From Acidimicrobiia bacterium (GTDB lineage Bacteria; Actinomycetota; Acidimicrobiia; Acidimicrobiales; CAIXPF01): 39,058 bases of DNA. The stretch is from positions 1 to 39,058 of the forward strand of contig WHTX01000007.1 of assembly GCA_009377505.1 (NCBI GenBank). Direction: 5' to 3'. Numbering within the stretch: position 1 is the first letter of the stretch; each line of letters starts with the position of its first letter. The position numbers and the translations under genes were made by a program. The notes under the pieces are model-generated. The model was not told the origin of the DNA, did not search any database, and saw only the letters and a list, made by a program, of their open reading frames with translations. Below are positions 26,378-36,440 of the stretch, piece after piece.

Positions 26378-29284
26378 ATGAGGTCGAGCAGCGCTACCGG
26401 CCCTGCCGTCTGCGTCCTCGGCCCCGTCTCGCTGCTCGTCGACGGTCGGCCGATCCCCATCGGTGGCCCAATGCCCCGGCGCCTGCTCGCTGCCTTGCTG
26501 GTGAACCGCGACGCCATGGTCAGCGCCGACCGGCTTTTGGAGGTGCTGTGGGGCGACGAGCCCCCCGACAGTGCGCTGTCCTCCCTGCACAGCTACCTCT
26601 CGCGCCTGCGTCGGCTGCTCCCCCCGTCCGCCCGCCTCGAGACTCTGGCGCCCGGTTACCGGCTCGTGGTCGAGCCCGGCACGGTGGACGTCGACCGGCT
26701 CGAGGCGGCGCTCACCGCCAGCCTGGGCCGCTTGGCGTACGAACCCCAGGCCGCACTCGTCGGGCTGGACGAAGCCCTGGCCATGTGGCTGGGCGACGCG
26801 TTCGCCGAGTTCTGCGACGAGTGGTGGGCGCGAGGCGAGGCGAGCCGGCTGGAGGAGCTACGACTTCACGCCCGCGAAGCTCGGGCCGAGGCCATGTTGG
26901 CGCTGGGGCAGCACGAGGCGGCGGTCGGCGAGGCCCGCGCCCTCACCGCCGACCATCCCGGCCGGGAGCGGGCGTGGCGCACCCTGGTGCTCGGGCTGCA
27001 CCGTGCCGGCCGCCAGGGCGAAGCGCTCCGCTGCGCCGGCGAGTACCGCGCCTGGCTACGGGAATCCTCCGGCCTCGACCCCTCGCCCGATTTCGTCGCC
27101 CTGGAGAACGACGTGGCCGTCGACGCCGCCCAGCTCCGTGCGGCGTCACCGGCCGAGCCCGCGGCGGTCGTGTCCTCACCCGGCCGACTGCCGGCGCCGC
27201 CCACGGACTTCATCGGCCGGGTGGCAGAGGTCGGCGCCGTCGCCGCTCTCGTGCAGGCCAGACGGGTCACCACCCTGACCGGCCCCGGTGGGGTCGGCAA
27301 GACGCGTCTTGCCGTCGAGGTCGCCGGGCGGGTGGAGGCCGACTACGCCGCCGGGGCGCGCTGGGTGGACCTCGGCTCGCTCAACGACCCGGGCGCGGTG
27401 CCCTTCGCCGCCGCCGCAGCGCTCGGGGTCACCCTGCAGGGCGGTCGCAGCCCGACGGAGAGCGTCGTCGACGCGCTCAGGGGGTGGGACCTGCTCCTGG
27501 TGCTCGACAACTGCGAGCACGTCATCGACACGTGCGTCGAGCTGGTCGGCTCGGTGCTGGTGGCCTGCCCGACCGTGGCGGTGCTGGCGACCAGCCGGGA
27601 GCCGCTGGGCCTGGCGGGGGAGGTGGTGCACAACGTTCCCTCCCTCGGCGCCGAGGGCGACGCCATGGACCTCTTCGTCGAGCGCGCCCGCAGCACGGAC
27701 GACGCCTTCGTGGTCGACGACGCCGCGGTCGTGGTCGAGCTGTGCCGACGCCTCGACGGGATCCCCCTCGCCATCGAGCTCGCCGCGGCACGGGTGCGGT
27801 CGATGTCGGTCAGCGAGATGCTCGACATGCTCCACGACCGGTTCCGCCTGCTGCGGGGTGGCCGCCGGGGCGGGGTGGAGCGGCACCAGACGTTGCGTTC
27901 GGCGGTGGAGTGGTCCTACCAGCTCCTGACCCCGGAGCGGCGCCTGCTGTTCGAGCGGCTCTCGGTCTTCAGCGGCGCGTTCGACCGGGACGCGGCCGCG
28001 GCCATCTGCGGGACGGCCCCCCTCGACCCCCTCGATGTCACCGAGCTGCTGACCGTGCTGGTGGACCGGTCGATGGTGGCGCCGACCCGCTCCGGGAGGA
28101 CGACGAGGTTCGGCCTCCTCGAGACGTTGCGCCAGTTCGGCGAGGACGAGCTGAACCGTCGCGGCGAGCTCGCCGAGCTGCGGGCCCGCCACCTCACCTA
28201 CTTCGCGACCGCGGCGACGAGAGCCGACGAGAACTTCAAGGGCTCCTCGCACGCCGAGGGACGGGCCTTCTTCGAGGACGATTGGGACAACCTGCGCTCG
28301 GCGCTCCAGTGGGCGCTCACCGACGCCGACGCCGGCGCCGCCTGCCAGTTGGTCGCCGCGGCCGCCCGGTTCGCGCAATGGGAGATGCGCCACGAACTGG
28401 GGGACTGGGCCCGGCAGGTCCTGGGCCAGGTCGAGGCCAGCCAGGTCACCCCGGCCGTGCTCGCGGCGGCGGCCCGGGCCGCGATCGCGGACGGCCGCCA
28501 CGACGAGGCGCTGCGCCTCGCGCGGCGGGGTGTGGCCGTGGCCGAGGAACGACAGGACCCCGCCCTGGGCTACTGCTGGAACATGGTCTACGCCGCGCAC
28601 TGGTACTCGGGCCGCAGCGCGGCCGCCGTAGAAGCCCTGGAGCGCAGCATCGACGCGTGCGTCGCTGGCGGCGACCTCCACGGGGAGTCGTCGAGCCACG
28701 TCGCGCTGACCATCTGCTGGGAGACGCTGAGAGAGCCCGAACGCGCCGTGGCGTCCGCGGCGCAGGCCGCCCGGTCGGCGCGTGCCGCCGGCAACCCCGT
28801 CCTCGTCGGGCAGGCCTGTTGGGCGGCCGGCTTCGCCGCCTACGCCGGCGGGGACCTCGAGGAGGCCGAGCGCTGCTTCCGCGCCGCGCTGCGCGCCGGG
28901 GAGGCGGCGGGCGCGACCTTCGCCGTCGACCTCGCCCACGTGGCGCTGGCCGGCCGCATCGGCCGGGCCCGCGGTGAGGTGGGCCTGCCGCTGTTCCGTG
29001 ACGCCTTGACCACCGTCTACGAGTCCCGTGACTGGCAGCACATCTGGGCCGTCCTCGAGTGCTGCGCCTGCACGCTCGAGCCCCCCACCTGGTCACATGT
29101 CGTCGCGCCAATCCTCGGCCACCTCGACGCCACCGGCCGGGGCCACTCGGGCTACGTCGAGGCCCGCCCGGGGGCCACCGCCCGCCTGGGCGACACCCCC
29201 GAGGTGCGCGCCGCCCGAGCGGCGGGAGCGGCCATGAGCCGTGAGGAGCTGGTCGCCTTCGTCCTCGAGCGGATCGGCGGCTGA
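26378..29284 (+). CDS. SARP/AfsR-type regulator: OmpR-like DNA-binding domain + BTAD + NTPase + TPR-like C-terminus
   Basis: [71 protein letters not shown] (SARP N-terminus), [19 protein letters not shown] (P-loop), [13 protein letters not shown]-terminal Ala/Glu-rich helical repeats. Confidence 0.93.
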
Positions 29285-29396
29285 CCGCCGGACTCTCGGC
29301 GCGTCGGGCGCCGCTGGGCGGCTGGCGCGCCGAGATGTGCCGAATGAAGGCGGGGGACGCCGGCGGGGTCCGCCGGGCTACGGTCAGCAGGTCAGC

Positions 29397-29446
29397 CCCA
29401 GCAGGCCAGGCCGCCCAGCAGGCCAGGCCGCCCAGCAGGCGAGCCG
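29397..29446. repeat. 17-bp tandem repeat (cccagcaggccaggccg), about 3 copies, upstream of mscR-like gene
   Basis: 29397-29413, 29414-29430 identical; 29431-29446 degenerate third copy. Confidence 0.85.
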
Positions 29447-29471
29447 AAGCAGACAGGACGGAGACGCGCAG

Positions 29472-30560
29472 ATGCCCCAGACGGTGCGAGGCGTGGTGGC
29501 GACCAACGCCAAGGAGCCGGTCTCGATCCTCCCGGTCGTCGTGCCCGACCCCGGCCCCGGCGAGGCCCTCGTCAGGGTCCAGGCCTGCGGGGTGTGCCAC
29601 ACCGACCTGCACTACCGCGAGGGCGGCATCAACGACGAGTTCCCCTTCCTCCTCGGCCACGAGGCCGCCGGCCTCGTCGAGGCCGTCGGTGACGGCGTGC
29701 GGGACCTCTTCCCCGGCGACTTCGTGGTCCTCAACTGGCGGGCGGTGTGCGGCACGTGCCGGTCCTGTCGGCGGGGGCGCCCCTGGCATTGCTTCTCCAC
29801 CTTCAACGCCAGCCAGAGGATGAGCCTCGAGGACGGCACGCCGCTCAGCCCCGCCCTCGGCATCGGCGCCTTCGCCGAGAAGACCCTCGTCGCCGCCGGG
29901 CAGGCCACCAAGGTCGACCCGAGCGCCCGGCCCGAGGCGGTAGGCCTGCTCGGCTGTGGGGTGATGGCGGGCCTCGGCGCCTCGATGCTGACCGGCAACG
30001 TGCAGCGGGGAGACTCGGTGGCCGTCTTCGGCTGCGGCGGGGTGGGCGACGCCGCCATCGCCGGGGCCAAGCTGGCCGGGGCGACCACGATCGTCGCCGT
30101 CGACCTCGAGGACCGCAAGCTCGCACTGGCCCGAGAGTTCGGCGCCACCCACACGGTGAACGCCGCCCGGGTCGACGCCGTCGAAGCGGTGAGGGAGGCG
30201 ACGGGAGGGTTCGGGGCCGATGTCTGCGTCGAGGCGGTCGGCAACCCCAAGGTGCTGGAGCAGGCCTTCTTCGCTCGTGACCTCGCCGGGACGGTCGTGC
30301 AGGTAGGGGTGCCCACCCCGGACATGAAGCTGCCTGATCTGCCCATGATCGAGTTCTTCGGCCGGGGAGGGGCGCTCAAGCCCTCGTGGTACGGCGATTG
30401 CCTCCCCAGCCGGGACTTCCCGTACCTCGTGGACCTCTACCTCCAGGGACGGCTCGACCTCGACCGCTTCGTCTCCGAGACCATCTCGCTCGACGAGGTG
30501 GAGGAGGCGTTCCACAAGATGGAGCGGGGCGAGGTGCTCCGCTCGGTCGTCGTCCTGTAG
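29472..30560 (+). CDS. mscR: S-(hydroxymethyl)mycothiol dehydrogenase-like Zn alcohol dehydrogenase
   Basis: [14 protein letters not shown]...[41 protein letters not shown]...[35 protein letters not shown]...[12 protein letters not shown]...[18 protein letters not shown]; matches the mycobacterial enzyme as I remember it. Confidence 0.85.
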
Positions 30561-31237: not shown

Positions 31238-31336
31238 CAGGGCCCGACCCTGAACGTCCCCCGACCCTGACCCCGAGGTCCCGCACTAACCTCAGCGGCG
31301 CGAGGGCACCAGGCCGTGCCGACGCGAGGGGGAGCC

Positions 31337-31909
31337 ATGACCGTCCGATTCCTCGACCCGAGAGCCGATCCCGGTGCCCCGGTCGAGCCCTACCTGCTCG
31401 GCATCGACGTCACTGCCGGCCCGATCGACATCGGCATGCTGGCCAACGGCTTCCCCGACTCGGTCGCCTTCCTCGACCAGCTCGCAGCCTCCCTCGCCGA
31501 GGTCCTGCCCGAGGCTCGCTTCCGCCACTACGACAAGGGCGACGCCTCGATCGTCGTGCCCGACGAGCTGTTGGCCGAGGTCACCGGCGCCTGCCAGGCC
31601 GTGGTGGCCGCCTACGGCCATTGAGGCAGCTGCACCACCGGCACCGTGCGTGACGGCGTGAAGCTGGCCCGCCAGGGCATCCCGGCCGTGGCCCTCGTGA
31701 CCTCGGAGTTCTGGGCCCAGGGCGATTTCGTCGCCCGGTCCGTGGGCATGCCCGACGTCCCCCGGGTGATGCTGCCCCACCCGGTGGCGGCGACGGGCGT
31801 CGAGAACATTCGGCGGGTGGCCGACAGCATCCGCGACGCCGTCTTGGCCGGGCTGGCCCGCCGGCGGCCGTCGCGCACCGGCGAGGGGGAGGGACCAGAT
31901 GGGGCGTGA
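31337..31909 (+). CDS. UGSC-family (seleno)protein with in-frame TGA (31622-31624) as predicted selenocysteine
   Basis: MTVRFLDPRADPGAPVEPYLLGIDVTAGPIDIGMLANGFPDSVAFLDQL...VTGACQAVVAAYGH-[TGA]-GSCTTGTVRDGVKLARQGIPAVALVTSEFWAQGDFVARSVGMPDVPRVMLPHPVAATG...GPDGA stop; same frame across the TGA, 191 codons. Confidence 0.85.
31625..31669 (+). promoter_or_regulatory. Candidate bacterial SECIS-like stem-loop immediately 3' of the TGA
   Basis: Hand fold: GGCAGCT (31625-31631) with AGCTG(G)CC (31662-31669), upper CAC/GTG and CCG/CGG pairs, 13-nt loop GCACCGTGCGTGA (31641-31653). Confidence 0.45.
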
Positions 31910-32975
31910 GCTGCTGGAAGCGGTGGACGAGGCCGAGGCGCTGGAGGCCTTGCACGCCCTGGCCTGCACCGACGGGCTCCCCGTGGTGGTGCCCACGCCC
32001 GAGCGGGTCGAGCGCTTCGTCGCCGCCTCGGGCCTCGACGGCGACCTCGTGCTCGGCGACATGGGCCCGGGCCTCGGCGCGGCGACCGTCGATCTCGTGG
32101 CCGCGGCGGCGGTGATGGCGGGCTGCCTCCCCGACCACATGCCCGTGGTCACGGCCGCCGTGCAGGCCGTCTGCCAGCCCGAGTTCGACCTCACCGAGAT
32201 GCAGGCCACCACGCACTGCACGGCGCCCCTCGTCATCGTCAACGGCCCGGTGCGCCAGGCCTGCGGCTTCCGCTCCGGCTTCGGCGCGCTCGGGCCTGGC
32301 TTCCGGGCCAACGCCGCCGTCGGCCGGGCCCTGCGCCTGGCCATGATCAACATCGGTGGCGGGCGGGCCGGTGAGTCGGACATGGCCCTCCTCGGCCACC
32401 CGGGCAAGTTCAGCTATTGCCTGGCCGAGGACGAGGAGGCATCGCCCTTCACGCCCCTGCACGTGCACCGGGGCTTCGCCCCCGAGGAGTCCGTCGTCAC
32501 GGTCGTCGGCGCCGAGGCCCCCCACTCCGTCATCTGCATCACCGACGCCGACGACCCCGACTCGCCCCTCCGTCTGCTGCGCTCCATCGCCGCCGGCATC
32601 GCCAACATGGGCGCCAACAACGCCCACATCGGCGGGCGGGGCATGGTGACCGTCGTGGTCAACCCCGACCACGCCGCCGTGCTGGAGCGCGGCGGCTACG
32701 ACCGGGCCAAGCTGGCCGAGGCGCTCTGCGAGCTGGCCGTCAACCGCCGCAGCCAGCTGGCCGAGCTGAGCCCGGCCATCGGGGCGGCGGGCAGCCCGGA
32801 CGACCTGGTGCGCTCGGTACGCCACCCCGAGGACCTGCTGGTCGTGCACGCCGGGGGCGGTGGCCTCTACTCGATGGTGATGCCGTCGTGGTGCGCCGGC
32901 CCCCACGCCAACCGGGCGGTCAGCCAGCGCGTCGACCTCAACCCCGCCTGCGCCATCCCCGGCCTCGGCCTCTGA
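31899..32975 (+). CDS. Conserved hypothetical protein, 11-nt overlap with and probable partner of the UGSC protein
   Basis: 358 aa; GCLPDHMPVVTAAVQAVC...TTHCTAPLVIVNGPVRQACGFRSGFGALGPGFRANAAVGRALRLAMINIGGGRAGESDMALLGHPGKFSYCLAEDEEASPF...NNAHIGGRGMVTVVVNPDHAAVL; several Cys residues. Confidence 0.8.
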   Translation: MGRELLEAVDEAEALEALHALACTDGLPVVVPTPERVERFVAASGLDGDLVLGDMGPGLGAATVDLVAAAAVMAGCLPDHMPVVTAAVQAVCQPEFDLTEMQATTHCTAPLVIVNGPVRQACGFRSGFGALGPGFRANAAVGRALRLAMINIGGGRAGESDMALLGHPGKFSYCLAEDEEASPFTPLHVHRGFAPEESVVTVVGAEAPHSVICITDADDPDSPLRLLRSIAAGIANMGANNAHIGGRGMVTVVVNPDHAAVLERGGYDRAKLAEALCELAVNRRSQLAELSPAIGAAGSPDDLVRSVRHPEDLLVVHAGGGGLYSMVMPSWCAGPHANRAVSQRVDLNPACAIPGLGL

Positions 32976-32997: not shown

Positions 32998-35900
32998 TCA
33001 CCAGGCGTCGACGTGGGGCCGCTTCTTGGCCGTGCGGGGCGGCGGCGGGCGCATCGAGCGGAGCAGGCTGGCCACCCAGAAGCGCGAGTCGGCCGGGTCG
33101 ATCGTGTCGTCGACGGCGAAGCCCGAGGCGTGGTTGAGCGCCTTGCCGCTCTCGTACGCCTTGGCCACCAGCGCCTCGTAGGCCTCGCGGCGCTCCTCCG
33201 CGTCCGAGATGGCCTCCAGCTCGGCCCGGAAGCCCAGCTTCACCGAGCCCTCGAGGCCCATGGGGCCGAACTCGCCCGTCGGCCAGGCCACGGTGAAGGT
33301 CGCCTCCCGGAAGGAGCCGCCGGCCATGGCGATGCCGCCGAGCCCGTAGGCCTTGCGCAGCACGATCGTGAAGTAGGGCACGGACAGGTTGGCGCTGACC
33401 AGGAACATGCGGTTGGCGTGGCGGACGAGCGCCGTCCTCTCGACCTCGGGCCCGACCATGATCCCCGGCGTGTCGCACAGGTGGAGGATGGGCACGTCGA
33501 ACGCGTCGCAGAGCTGCATGAAGCGGGCGCCCTTGTCGGCGCCGTCCGAGTCGATGGCGCCGCCGAGGTGCTTGGGGTTGTTGGCGATGACCCCGAGGGG
33601 GCGTCCCTCCACACGGACGAGCGAGGTGACCATCCCCGCACCGAAGCCCCGCCGCAGCTCGAGCACCGAGCCCACGTCGGCCAGCGTCTCGATGACCTGG
33701 CGCACGTCGTACACGCGCAGGCGGTTCTCGGGGATGATCGGCCGCATCCGCCGCTGGTCGTGGGCCTCGAAGCCGGTGACGGCCCCCTGGAAGTAGGAGA
33801 GGTACCTCTTGGCCACCGCCACGGCCTCGGCCTCGTCCCCGACGGCGATGTCGACCACGCCGTTCGGCACCTGCACCGACATCGGCCCGATCTCCTCCGG
33901 CGTGAACACGCCCAGGCCGCCCCCCTCGACCATGGCTGGGCCCCCCATGCCGATGTTCGAGCCCTCCGTGGCGATGATGACGTCGCAGCAGGCGAGCAGG
34001 GAGGCATTGCCGGCGAAGCAGCGGCCCGAGGTGATGCCGACCATCGGCACCAGCCCGCTGAGCGTGGCGAAGTGGGCGAACGTGCGCGAGCCGAAGTCGC
34101 CGCCGTCGGTGTCGCCCGGCCGCCCGCCTCCGCCCTCGGCGAAGAGCACGAGGGGCATCCGGCCGGCTCGGGCGACGTCGATGAGCTTGTCGGTCTTGGC
34201 GTGGTTGCGGATGCCCTGGGTGCCGGCGAAGACCGTGTAGTCGTAGGCCATCACTGCGCAGCGGTTCACCGGGTCCCCGAACTGGTCGCCGTTGATGCTG
34301 CCGACGCCGGTGACCATGCCATCGGCCGGGCTCTTCTCGATGAGCTCCTCGGTGGAGCGGCGGCGGCGCTGGGCGGCGAGCGCGAGGGGCCCGTACTCGA
34401 GGAACGTGCCCGGGTCACAGAGGTCCTCGACGTTCTCCCGCGTCGTGCGCTGCCCCGTCGCCCGCCGGCGGGCGACGGCCGCGGGCCGGGCGGCGTCGAG
34501 CGTTCGAGCCTGGCGGTCGAGGACCTCGGCGAGATCGGCGCGGATGGCGTCGAGGTCGACCTCGACCTCGGGGCCGGCGCCGGCGCCGGCCACATCGCCC
34601 TCCTCCAGCACGAGAAGGGGAGCCGCGGCGAAGACCGTGTCCCCGCTGGCGACGAGCACGTCGAGCACGGTCCCGCCGACCTCGGCTCGCACCTCGTGCT
34701 CCATCTTCATGGACTCCATGACGAGCACCAGCTCGCCAGGGCGGATGACGTCCCCGGCGGTGACCCCGAGGGCGACGACCGTCCCCTGCATCGGCGCGGC
34801 GACGATCGTGCCCTCGGCAGTAGGGGCTGGTGAGCCGTCCGTCGCCGGTGTCGGTGTCGGTGAAGCGGTGGGAGGGGCCTGGCGGCCGTAGGCGAGGACC
34901 GCCAGGGGGTCGGCGCTGTCGACCCGGGCGCCGGCCAGCCCGAGCGTGCCGGCCGTGCCGGCGGGGCCTCGGCCAGGCGCTGTGCTGGTGGGGCCGCCAG
35001 GGGTGGCGGCGAAGAAGCGCTGCGGGTGGTCGGCAGACGGCAGTGCCGCGCTGCTGAGCTGGGCGAGGTGCTCGTCCACGAAGCTGGTCGTGAGACGGCC
35101 CGCGGCGAAGTCCTCGTGGGCGACGAGGCCCTGGAGGAAGGCGATGTTCGTCTCCACGCCCTCGATGCGGCACTCGCTGAGCGCACGGTAGGCCTTGGCC
35201 GCCGCCTCGGCGAAGGTGCCTGCGGGCCGGTGGACGACGACCTTGGCCAGCAGCGAGTCGAAGGCCGGGTTGGTGCGGTAGCCGGCGTAGCCGTAGCCGT
35301 CGACCCTGATGCCGGGGCCGGAGGGCAACTCGTAGGCGCCGAGCGTGCCCCCGCTGGGCACCACGGTCCCGTCCGGGCGCAGGGCCTCGGTGTTGACACG
35401 CACCTGGATGGCGAACCCCTGCGCCGGCGGACCGGCTCCCTCGTCGAGGCCGAGGTCGGCGAGGGTGGCCCCGCCGGCCAGGCGGAGCTGCGCCTCGACG
35501 AGGTCGAACCCGGTGACCTCCTCGGTGACGGTGTGCTCTACCTGCAACCGGGGATTGGCCTCGATGAAGGCGAACGCCGGGCGGGCGTCGTGGCGGGCGT
35601 CGACGAGGAACTCGAACGTGCCCACCCCGTCGAAGCGCACGGCACGGGCCAGGCGCAGCGCCGCGGCCACGACCGCCTCGCGCGCGGCCCGGTGCAAGCC
35701 GGGGGCGGGCGCCACCTCGACCAGCTTCTGGTGGCGGCGCTGGACGCTGCAGTCACGTTCGCCCAGGTGGGCCACCGCGCCCGAGCCGTCCCCGAGCACC
35801 TGCACCTCGACGTGGCGAGCGGCCGCCATGAGCTGCTCCACGTAGACAGAGCCGTCGCCGAACGCCGCCGTCGCCTCCGACGTGCAGCGGGCGTGGGCCT

Positions 35901-36440
35901 CCTCCACCTCGTCGGGGTGGCGGACGACCCGCATCCCCCGCCCGCCGCCGCCGGCCACGGCCTTGATGACCATGGCGCCGCCGGTCCCGAGGGAGCCCAG
36001 GAACGCCCGGGCCTCGCCGACGCCCACCGGGCCGGCCGAGCCCGCCAGCACGGGGACGTCGGCGGCCCGGGCCGCGTCGCGGGCGCGGGCCTTGTCACCG
36101 AAGAGGGCCAGCACCTCGGGCCGCGGCCCCACGAAGGTGACCCCGCCGCTGCGCAGGCCTCGGCGAAGGCGGCGTTCTCGCTGAGGAAGCCGTAGCCGGG
36201 GTGGAGCGCGTCAGCGCCGACGTCCGCCGCCACAGCCAGGAGCTGGGCGCCGTCGAGGTAGGCGGCGGCACCTCGCCCGGGGAGCGGTCGGGCGAGGTCG
36301 GCGGCACGCGTGTGCAGGGACGTGGCGTCGTCGGCCGAGTGGACGGCGACGGCGCGCACGCCGAGCTCGGCGCACGCCCGGCTCACCCTGATGGCGATCT
36401 CGCCCCGATTGGCGATCAACAGCGTCGATGGCAGTGCCAC
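32998..36440 (-). CDS. Single-chain biotin-dependent acyl-CoA carboxylase (biotin carboxylase + BCCP + carboxyltransferase), frameshifted at 36141-36144
   Basis: N-terminal STLLIANRGEIAIRVSRACAELG...GADALHPGYGFLSENAAFAEACAAAG in one frame; VTFVGPRPEVLALFGDKARARDAA...VIKAVAGGGGRGMRVV...FIEANPRLQVEHTVTEEVTG...VMESMKMEHEV...carboxyltransferase DTPGIMVGPEVERTALVRHANRMF in the next. Span is one base short of a codon multiple. Confidence 0.92.

Follow-up and report, generated by a model that had tools for sequence, protein, structure and literature searches.

The locus raised the question of whether a TGA codon separating two adjacent open reading frames in the 39,058-nucleotide stretch of Acidimicrobiia bacterium DNA analysed here (contig WHTX01000007.1, hereafter the window) ends translation or encodes selenocysteine (Sec), and, if the latter, what the resulting protein might do. 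A sequence-only reading of the window had listed ORFs at 31316-31624 and 31646-31909 and proposed that they are two halves of one UGSC-family gene with Sec at the U position of the motif. Re-reading of the sequence gave the same two ORFs. The codons around the site are GCC TAC GGC CAT TGA GGC AGC TGC ACC ACC GGC ACC GTG CGT GAC GGC GTG AAG, and past the TGA the same frame stays open for 94 codons, up to the TGA at 31907-31909. The start codon is likely ATG 31337 rather than GTG 31316, since a ribosome-binding-like sequence, AGGGGGAG, is located shortly upstream of the ATG. The features of the locus are collected in Table 1.

Table 1. Positions of the candidate selenoprotein gene, its elements and its neighbours in the window
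Feature	Position	Strand	Description	Evidence
Predicted UGSC-family selenoprotein gene	31337..31909	+	190 residues + stop, TGA read as Sec	PF24696, alignment A1, purifying selection before and after the TGA
In-frame TGA as putative selenocysteine codon	31622..31624	+	residue 96, U of UGSC	TGA/Cys column across relatives
Candidate SECIS hairpin core	31638..31656	+	CCG.CAC[CGUGC]GUG.CGG, GU in apical loop	synonymous constraint, bSECIS rules
Partner gene	31899..32975	+	358 aa, unassigned to any known family; 11-nt overlap with the end of the UGSC gene	
S-(hydroxymethyl)mycothiol dehydrogenase	29241..30560	+		TIGR03451, 638 bits vs cut-off 512.9

The read-through protein matched the Pfam UGSC model PF24696 with 140.1 bits, against a cut-off of 25, and an E-value of about 1e-40 (9e-41). 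The alignment extends over residues 31-173 of the protein and positions 28-170 of the 172 in the model. As this match crosses the TGA, the truncated ORF call resolves into one gene, and the proposed membership of the UGSC family was upheld. The NCBIfam equivalog NF041046 (UGSC_fam) gave 107 bits (E 8e-31), below its cut-off of 125; since the protein scored above the Pfam cut-off but under that of the equivalog, it was assigned to a divergent branch of UGSC. It shares with the family defined by PF24696/NF041046, known from marine metagenomes, the U-G-S-C motif (TGA-GGC-AGC-TGC in the window gene), the length, the domain and the occurrence of Sec with Cys homologues, but differs from it in belonging to a YGHUGSCTTGTVRDG branch with a SECIS geometry of its own.

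For comparison with its homologues, the read-through protein was placed in an alignment of 44 UGSC members (A1). PF24696 matches were present in 29 of 396 genomes from the phylum, and nearly all full-length copies found there contain one in-frame TGA, located at the U position of U-G-[SAG]-C. When 84,980 species genomes were scanned, 16 subfamily relatives were obtained. Fifteen of these are close and originate from Actinomycetota/Acidimicrobiia, Myxococcota and marine Gammaproteobacteria, with HTCC2080 among them; the remaining one, 36 % identical, comes from a Rokuibacteriota MAG. TGA occupies the U codon in all 16 aligned subfamily members and in nearly all of the whole set of about 45 phylum and 16 subfamily relatives, which bears out the proposed position of Sec. 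Four copies (L019, L036, L039 and L040) have Cys in place of Sec, also as anticipated from the sequence alone. Five UGSC copies, each with a TGA, are encoded in the source genome: the window gene and four others on contigs C30 (L054), C137 (L052), C147 (L053) and C460 (L055) of G000. Genomes of the same family have 4-5 copies apiece.

Homologues of the partner gene, of approximately 350 aa, adjoin nearly every UGSC gene examined, either upstream or downstream, and lie downstream in 15/15 close subfamily relatives. The two genes are fused into one ORF in L044, and another copy from the source genome (L053, G000:C147, 2-1940) consists of one UGSC gene followed by two tandem partner genes. It is highly probable that UGSC and its partner constitute an obligate pair. 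No significant family was assigned in a Pfam and NCBIfam scan of 40 partner members, and a PDB sequence search with the partner retrieved no relative. The residue Cys76, situated in VMAGC, is kept in all 40 sequences of alignment A2 and is replaced in L137. As to the partner fold, weak matches to the Toblerone fold and to fumarase (TM ~0.2) were the only ones obtained and were discarded. In the GOS study (2008, PMC2398784), UGSC is described as fused to a domain named 'Unknown_1', and the partner, which in the genomes analysed here is adjacent to UGSC or fused with it, is presumably this domain.

The relationship of UGSC to the glycine reductase subunit GrdB was analysed with a GrdB-side profile prepared from 13 actinobacterial grdB and 4 short GRDB-like genes, all read through the TGA that follows PF07355. 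The UGSC profile aligned with the last ~90 residues of GrdB and the Sec columns of both coincided. Comparison with GrdB alone gave P 58.8 and E 9.4e-5, and the addition of the short GRDB-like sequences raised this to P 90.6, E 1.3e-6 and a score of 52. Since these E-values refer to a single comparison, more weight was given to the controls, in which column-shuffled profiles scored no more than 19.2, reversed profiles no more than 18.9 and twelve unrelated families no more than 26. No hhalign match was obtained between UGSC and the portion of GrdB covered by PF07355, because the Pfam model ends just before Sec, and the match emerged once the TGA had been read through. The PF07355 domain had no match in UGSC members either, and the homology is limited to the segment past the end of that model.

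UGSC and the GrdB group (GrdB with PF07355 and the short GRDB-like proteins) have in common a beta strand, a helix with Sec at its beginning, the alignment of the Sec columns, and a G-I-P strand followed by a motif of HP/YP type; the N-terminal ~340 residues of GrdB are missing in UGSC. The UxxCxxC motif described for GrdB (PMC13188914) is also present in most UGSC proteins (UGSCTSC, UGSCSSC), whereas the second Cys of UGSCTSC is Gly in the window branch. A PDB search for a GrdB-like chain, intended for direct fold comparison, found none. From the profile comparisons, UGSC is probably related by distant homology to the C-terminal, Sec-bearing domain of GrdB and to the short GRDB-like proteins. 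The partner was also considered as a relative of GrdE (PF09338), the partner of GrdB in glycine reductase, and this was rejected in view of the lack of an hhalign signal and of a Pfam match. Because the UGSC partner is not homologous to GrdE, the reaction catalysed may differ from that of glycine reductase.

Some further observations concern GrdB and its relatives. All 13 actinobacterial grdB genes (L105-L117) have a TGA directly past the end of the PF07355 match, and searches with this model miss the catalytic segment of GrdB because the model ends before Sec. The GrdE-type proteins (PF09338) encoded beside these genes, e.g. L109:2520-3800 (-), have no Cys common to all of them, an observation of possible relevance to pyruvoyl processing as expected from clostridial GrdE. 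The source genome contains a GRDB-like match of 41 bits at G000:C6:1879-2250 (-). The short GRDB-like relatives L121-L124 carry a motif of U-x-x-C or U-x-C type at the TGA, and for this reason the C6 locus probably encodes a further selenoprotein.

In the AlphaFold2 model of the UGSC protein (pLDDT 88, pTM 0.81), residue 96 is situated between the strand 88-94 and the helix 97-112. The nearest solved folds were those of flavodoxin/flavodiiron proteins and azoreductase, with modest similarity (TM ~0.45); no sequence relatives of UGSC were found in the PDB. The fold is thus predicted to be flavodoxin-like and not thioredoxin-like, as had been published: the GOS paper (2008, PMC2398784) called a Trx-like fold likely on the basis of the UxxC motif. 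An ordinary thioredoxin-like thiol/selenol oxidoreductase, functioning as a reductase or in peroxide detoxification, would suit this motif and the published assignment as well as the Sec/Cys exchange, which is typical of redox selenoproteins. Such a function is nevertheless rather unlikely, since the model resembles other folds and none of the 50 structure matches listed for it is a thioredoxin, the profile homology goes to GrdB, and a constant large partner is atypical of thioredoxins.

The source genome is a MAG of 494 contigs with 92 % completeness and 5.5 % estimated contamination. The selA and selB genes were found side by side on contig C178, and tRNA-Sec on contig C494 (66.7 bits against a gathering score of 47; anticodon tca according to ARAGORN), whereas no selD over the cut-off was found in this fragmented assembly. 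Of the Sec genes to which the sequence-only reading had pointed, selA, selB and tRNA-Sec were therefore recovered and selD was not; the simplest reading is that selD falls into an assembly gap. The missing selD, the location of the machinery on short contigs and the estimated contamination would also agree with an organism unable to make Sec, which truly lacks selD and whose selA, selB and tRNA-Sec lie on contaminating contigs. This is very improbable in view of the presence of selD in 5/5 and of tRNA-Sec over the cut-off in 4/5 of the same-family genomes searched, and of five separate TGA-bearing UGSC genes in the source genome. Both tRNA-Sec and selD are present in the cultured HTCC2080 (L134, genome G437). 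In the genome comparison, TGA-type UGSC goes together with selA and selD. Three UGSC carriers lack selA: G102 and G150, whose copies are devoid of the TGA, and G036, a MAG of 94 % completeness which has selD. The selD genes of the same-family genomes (G396-G400) contain an in-frame TGA of their own, and because of it they probably encode a Sec-containing SelD.

The RNA following the window TGA was inspected for a SECIS element. The bSECIS model (PMC13188914) places the element 16-37 nt after the UGA, with a G within the first two loop positions. The loop CGUGC of the window hairpin begins at +21 after the UGA, and the hairpin agrees with the loop-size, loop-G and spacing rules of this model. 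In amino-acid-identical comparisons of the 16 subfamily members, the codons U+5..U+10, which form the hairpin, were 95 % identical versus 49 % gene-wide; this segment ranked first of 103 windows for codon identity and the constraint holds across three phyla. Evidence for the element is comparative rather than energetic, since the folding energy of the window copy taken alone did not exceed that of shuffled sequence. In most family members the hairpin has the form GUCGUGCA[GUN]UGCACGAC, begins 12 nt after the UGA and presents its GU loop at +20; the Cys copies lack this hairpin. The covarying pairs of the hairpin are C-G/G-C in 7 sequences, U-A/G-C in 3 and G-C/A-U in 2, and the score for these 12 doubly changed cells was reached by 0/500 shuffles. 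This family consensus hairpin was rejected for the window copy, in which pairs 16:32 and 19:29 break, and the window subfamily uses another pairing. The presence of a SECIS downstream of the window UGA is supported by these comparisons.

At the protein level, the part past the TGA shows 65 % aa identity to L075, with pN 0.27 and pS 0.51, and is under purifying selection as judged from this comparison; the part before the TGA is less conserved (43 % aa identity, pN 0.37, pS 0.58). Taken together, the segment 31337-31909 is almost certainly one genuine gene for a UGSC-family selenoprotein with Sec inserted at the TGA. The opposite view, that the TGA is a real stop in a truncated gene, a pseudogene or between two short genes, agrees with the two ORFs yielded by standard calling but is scarcely credible against the same TGA in 16/16 aligned subfamily members and dozens of relatives, the purifying selection and RNA-level constraint past it, and the Sec machinery in the genome.

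The neighbourhood of the pair was also inspected. A family III CoA-transferase gene directly adjoins the pair in L087, L088 and L101, in genomes with totals of 6, 15 and 8 such genes, respectively; the rough chance expectation is 0.2 over ~17 low-copy loci, and the adjacency in these low-copy genomes is suggestive. CoA-transferase genes are also adjacent in L096 and on contig C137 of the source genome, where copies are abundant, and nearby in L103. The arrangement on C137 means little on its own because the source genome has ~61 genes of this kind, and CoA-transferase neighbours were not retained as a strong clue, the low-copy genomes alone carrying weight. Zinc alcohol dehydrogenases are encoded near UGSC in the window, on contig C147 of the source genome (L053) and in L132, and the S-(hydroxymethyl)mycothiol dehydrogenase of the window is a possible functional neighbour of the pair. 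Acyl-CoA dehydrogenases follow UGSC in L136. On the other side of the pair the window contains a single ORF of 1044 aa at 32998-36132 (-), in which motifs of biotin carboxylase, biotin carrier and carboxyltransferase were recognized by eye and which looks like a one-chain acyl-CoA carboxylase.

The explanation favoured for the whole, with somewhat better than even confidence, is a UGSC selenoprotein and its partner forming a two-gene unit with GrdB-like selenolate chemistry. The two proteins most likely make up a two-subunit enzyme, in which a GrdB-like selenolate would act on a small metabolite. In the UGSC subunit, an alpha/beta domain of flavodoxin type would expose the selenolate at the N-terminal end of a helix, while the partner would bind the substrate or complete the active site. 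The selenolate would then attack an activated carbon or heteroatom of the metabolite, probably a carboxylate or an acyl-CoA-linked compound, and the Se-adduct, or a selenylsulfide with the neighbouring Cys (UxxC), would be resolved by reduction, in line with the GrdB branch of this chemistry. By analogy with GrdB, a reaction of this kind with an acyl or CoA-linked substrate can be put forward only tentatively. Equally provisional is the broader proposal of a new class of two-subunit selenoenzymes, related to the Sec domain of GrdB, which might act on an activated metabolite, possibly linked to CoA, by cleavage or reduction; the several paralogues per genome would be tuned to different substrates in free-living Actinomycetota and marine Gammaproteobacteria.

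The UGSC family itself is already known, and the additions made here are the partner gene and the link to GrdB, neither of which was found stated in the literature searched. These two, together with the SECIS and the five paralogues, were also absent from the sequence-only reading. The halves of UGSC genes and their pairing with the partner are easily missed because ORF calling splits such genes. The resemblance to GrdB provides a testable idea of function for the family. With a constant partner, a sequence link to GrdB and HTCC2080 as a cultured carrier of the UGSC gene, the partner, tRNA-Sec and selD, the function of UGSC becomes open to concrete experiments.
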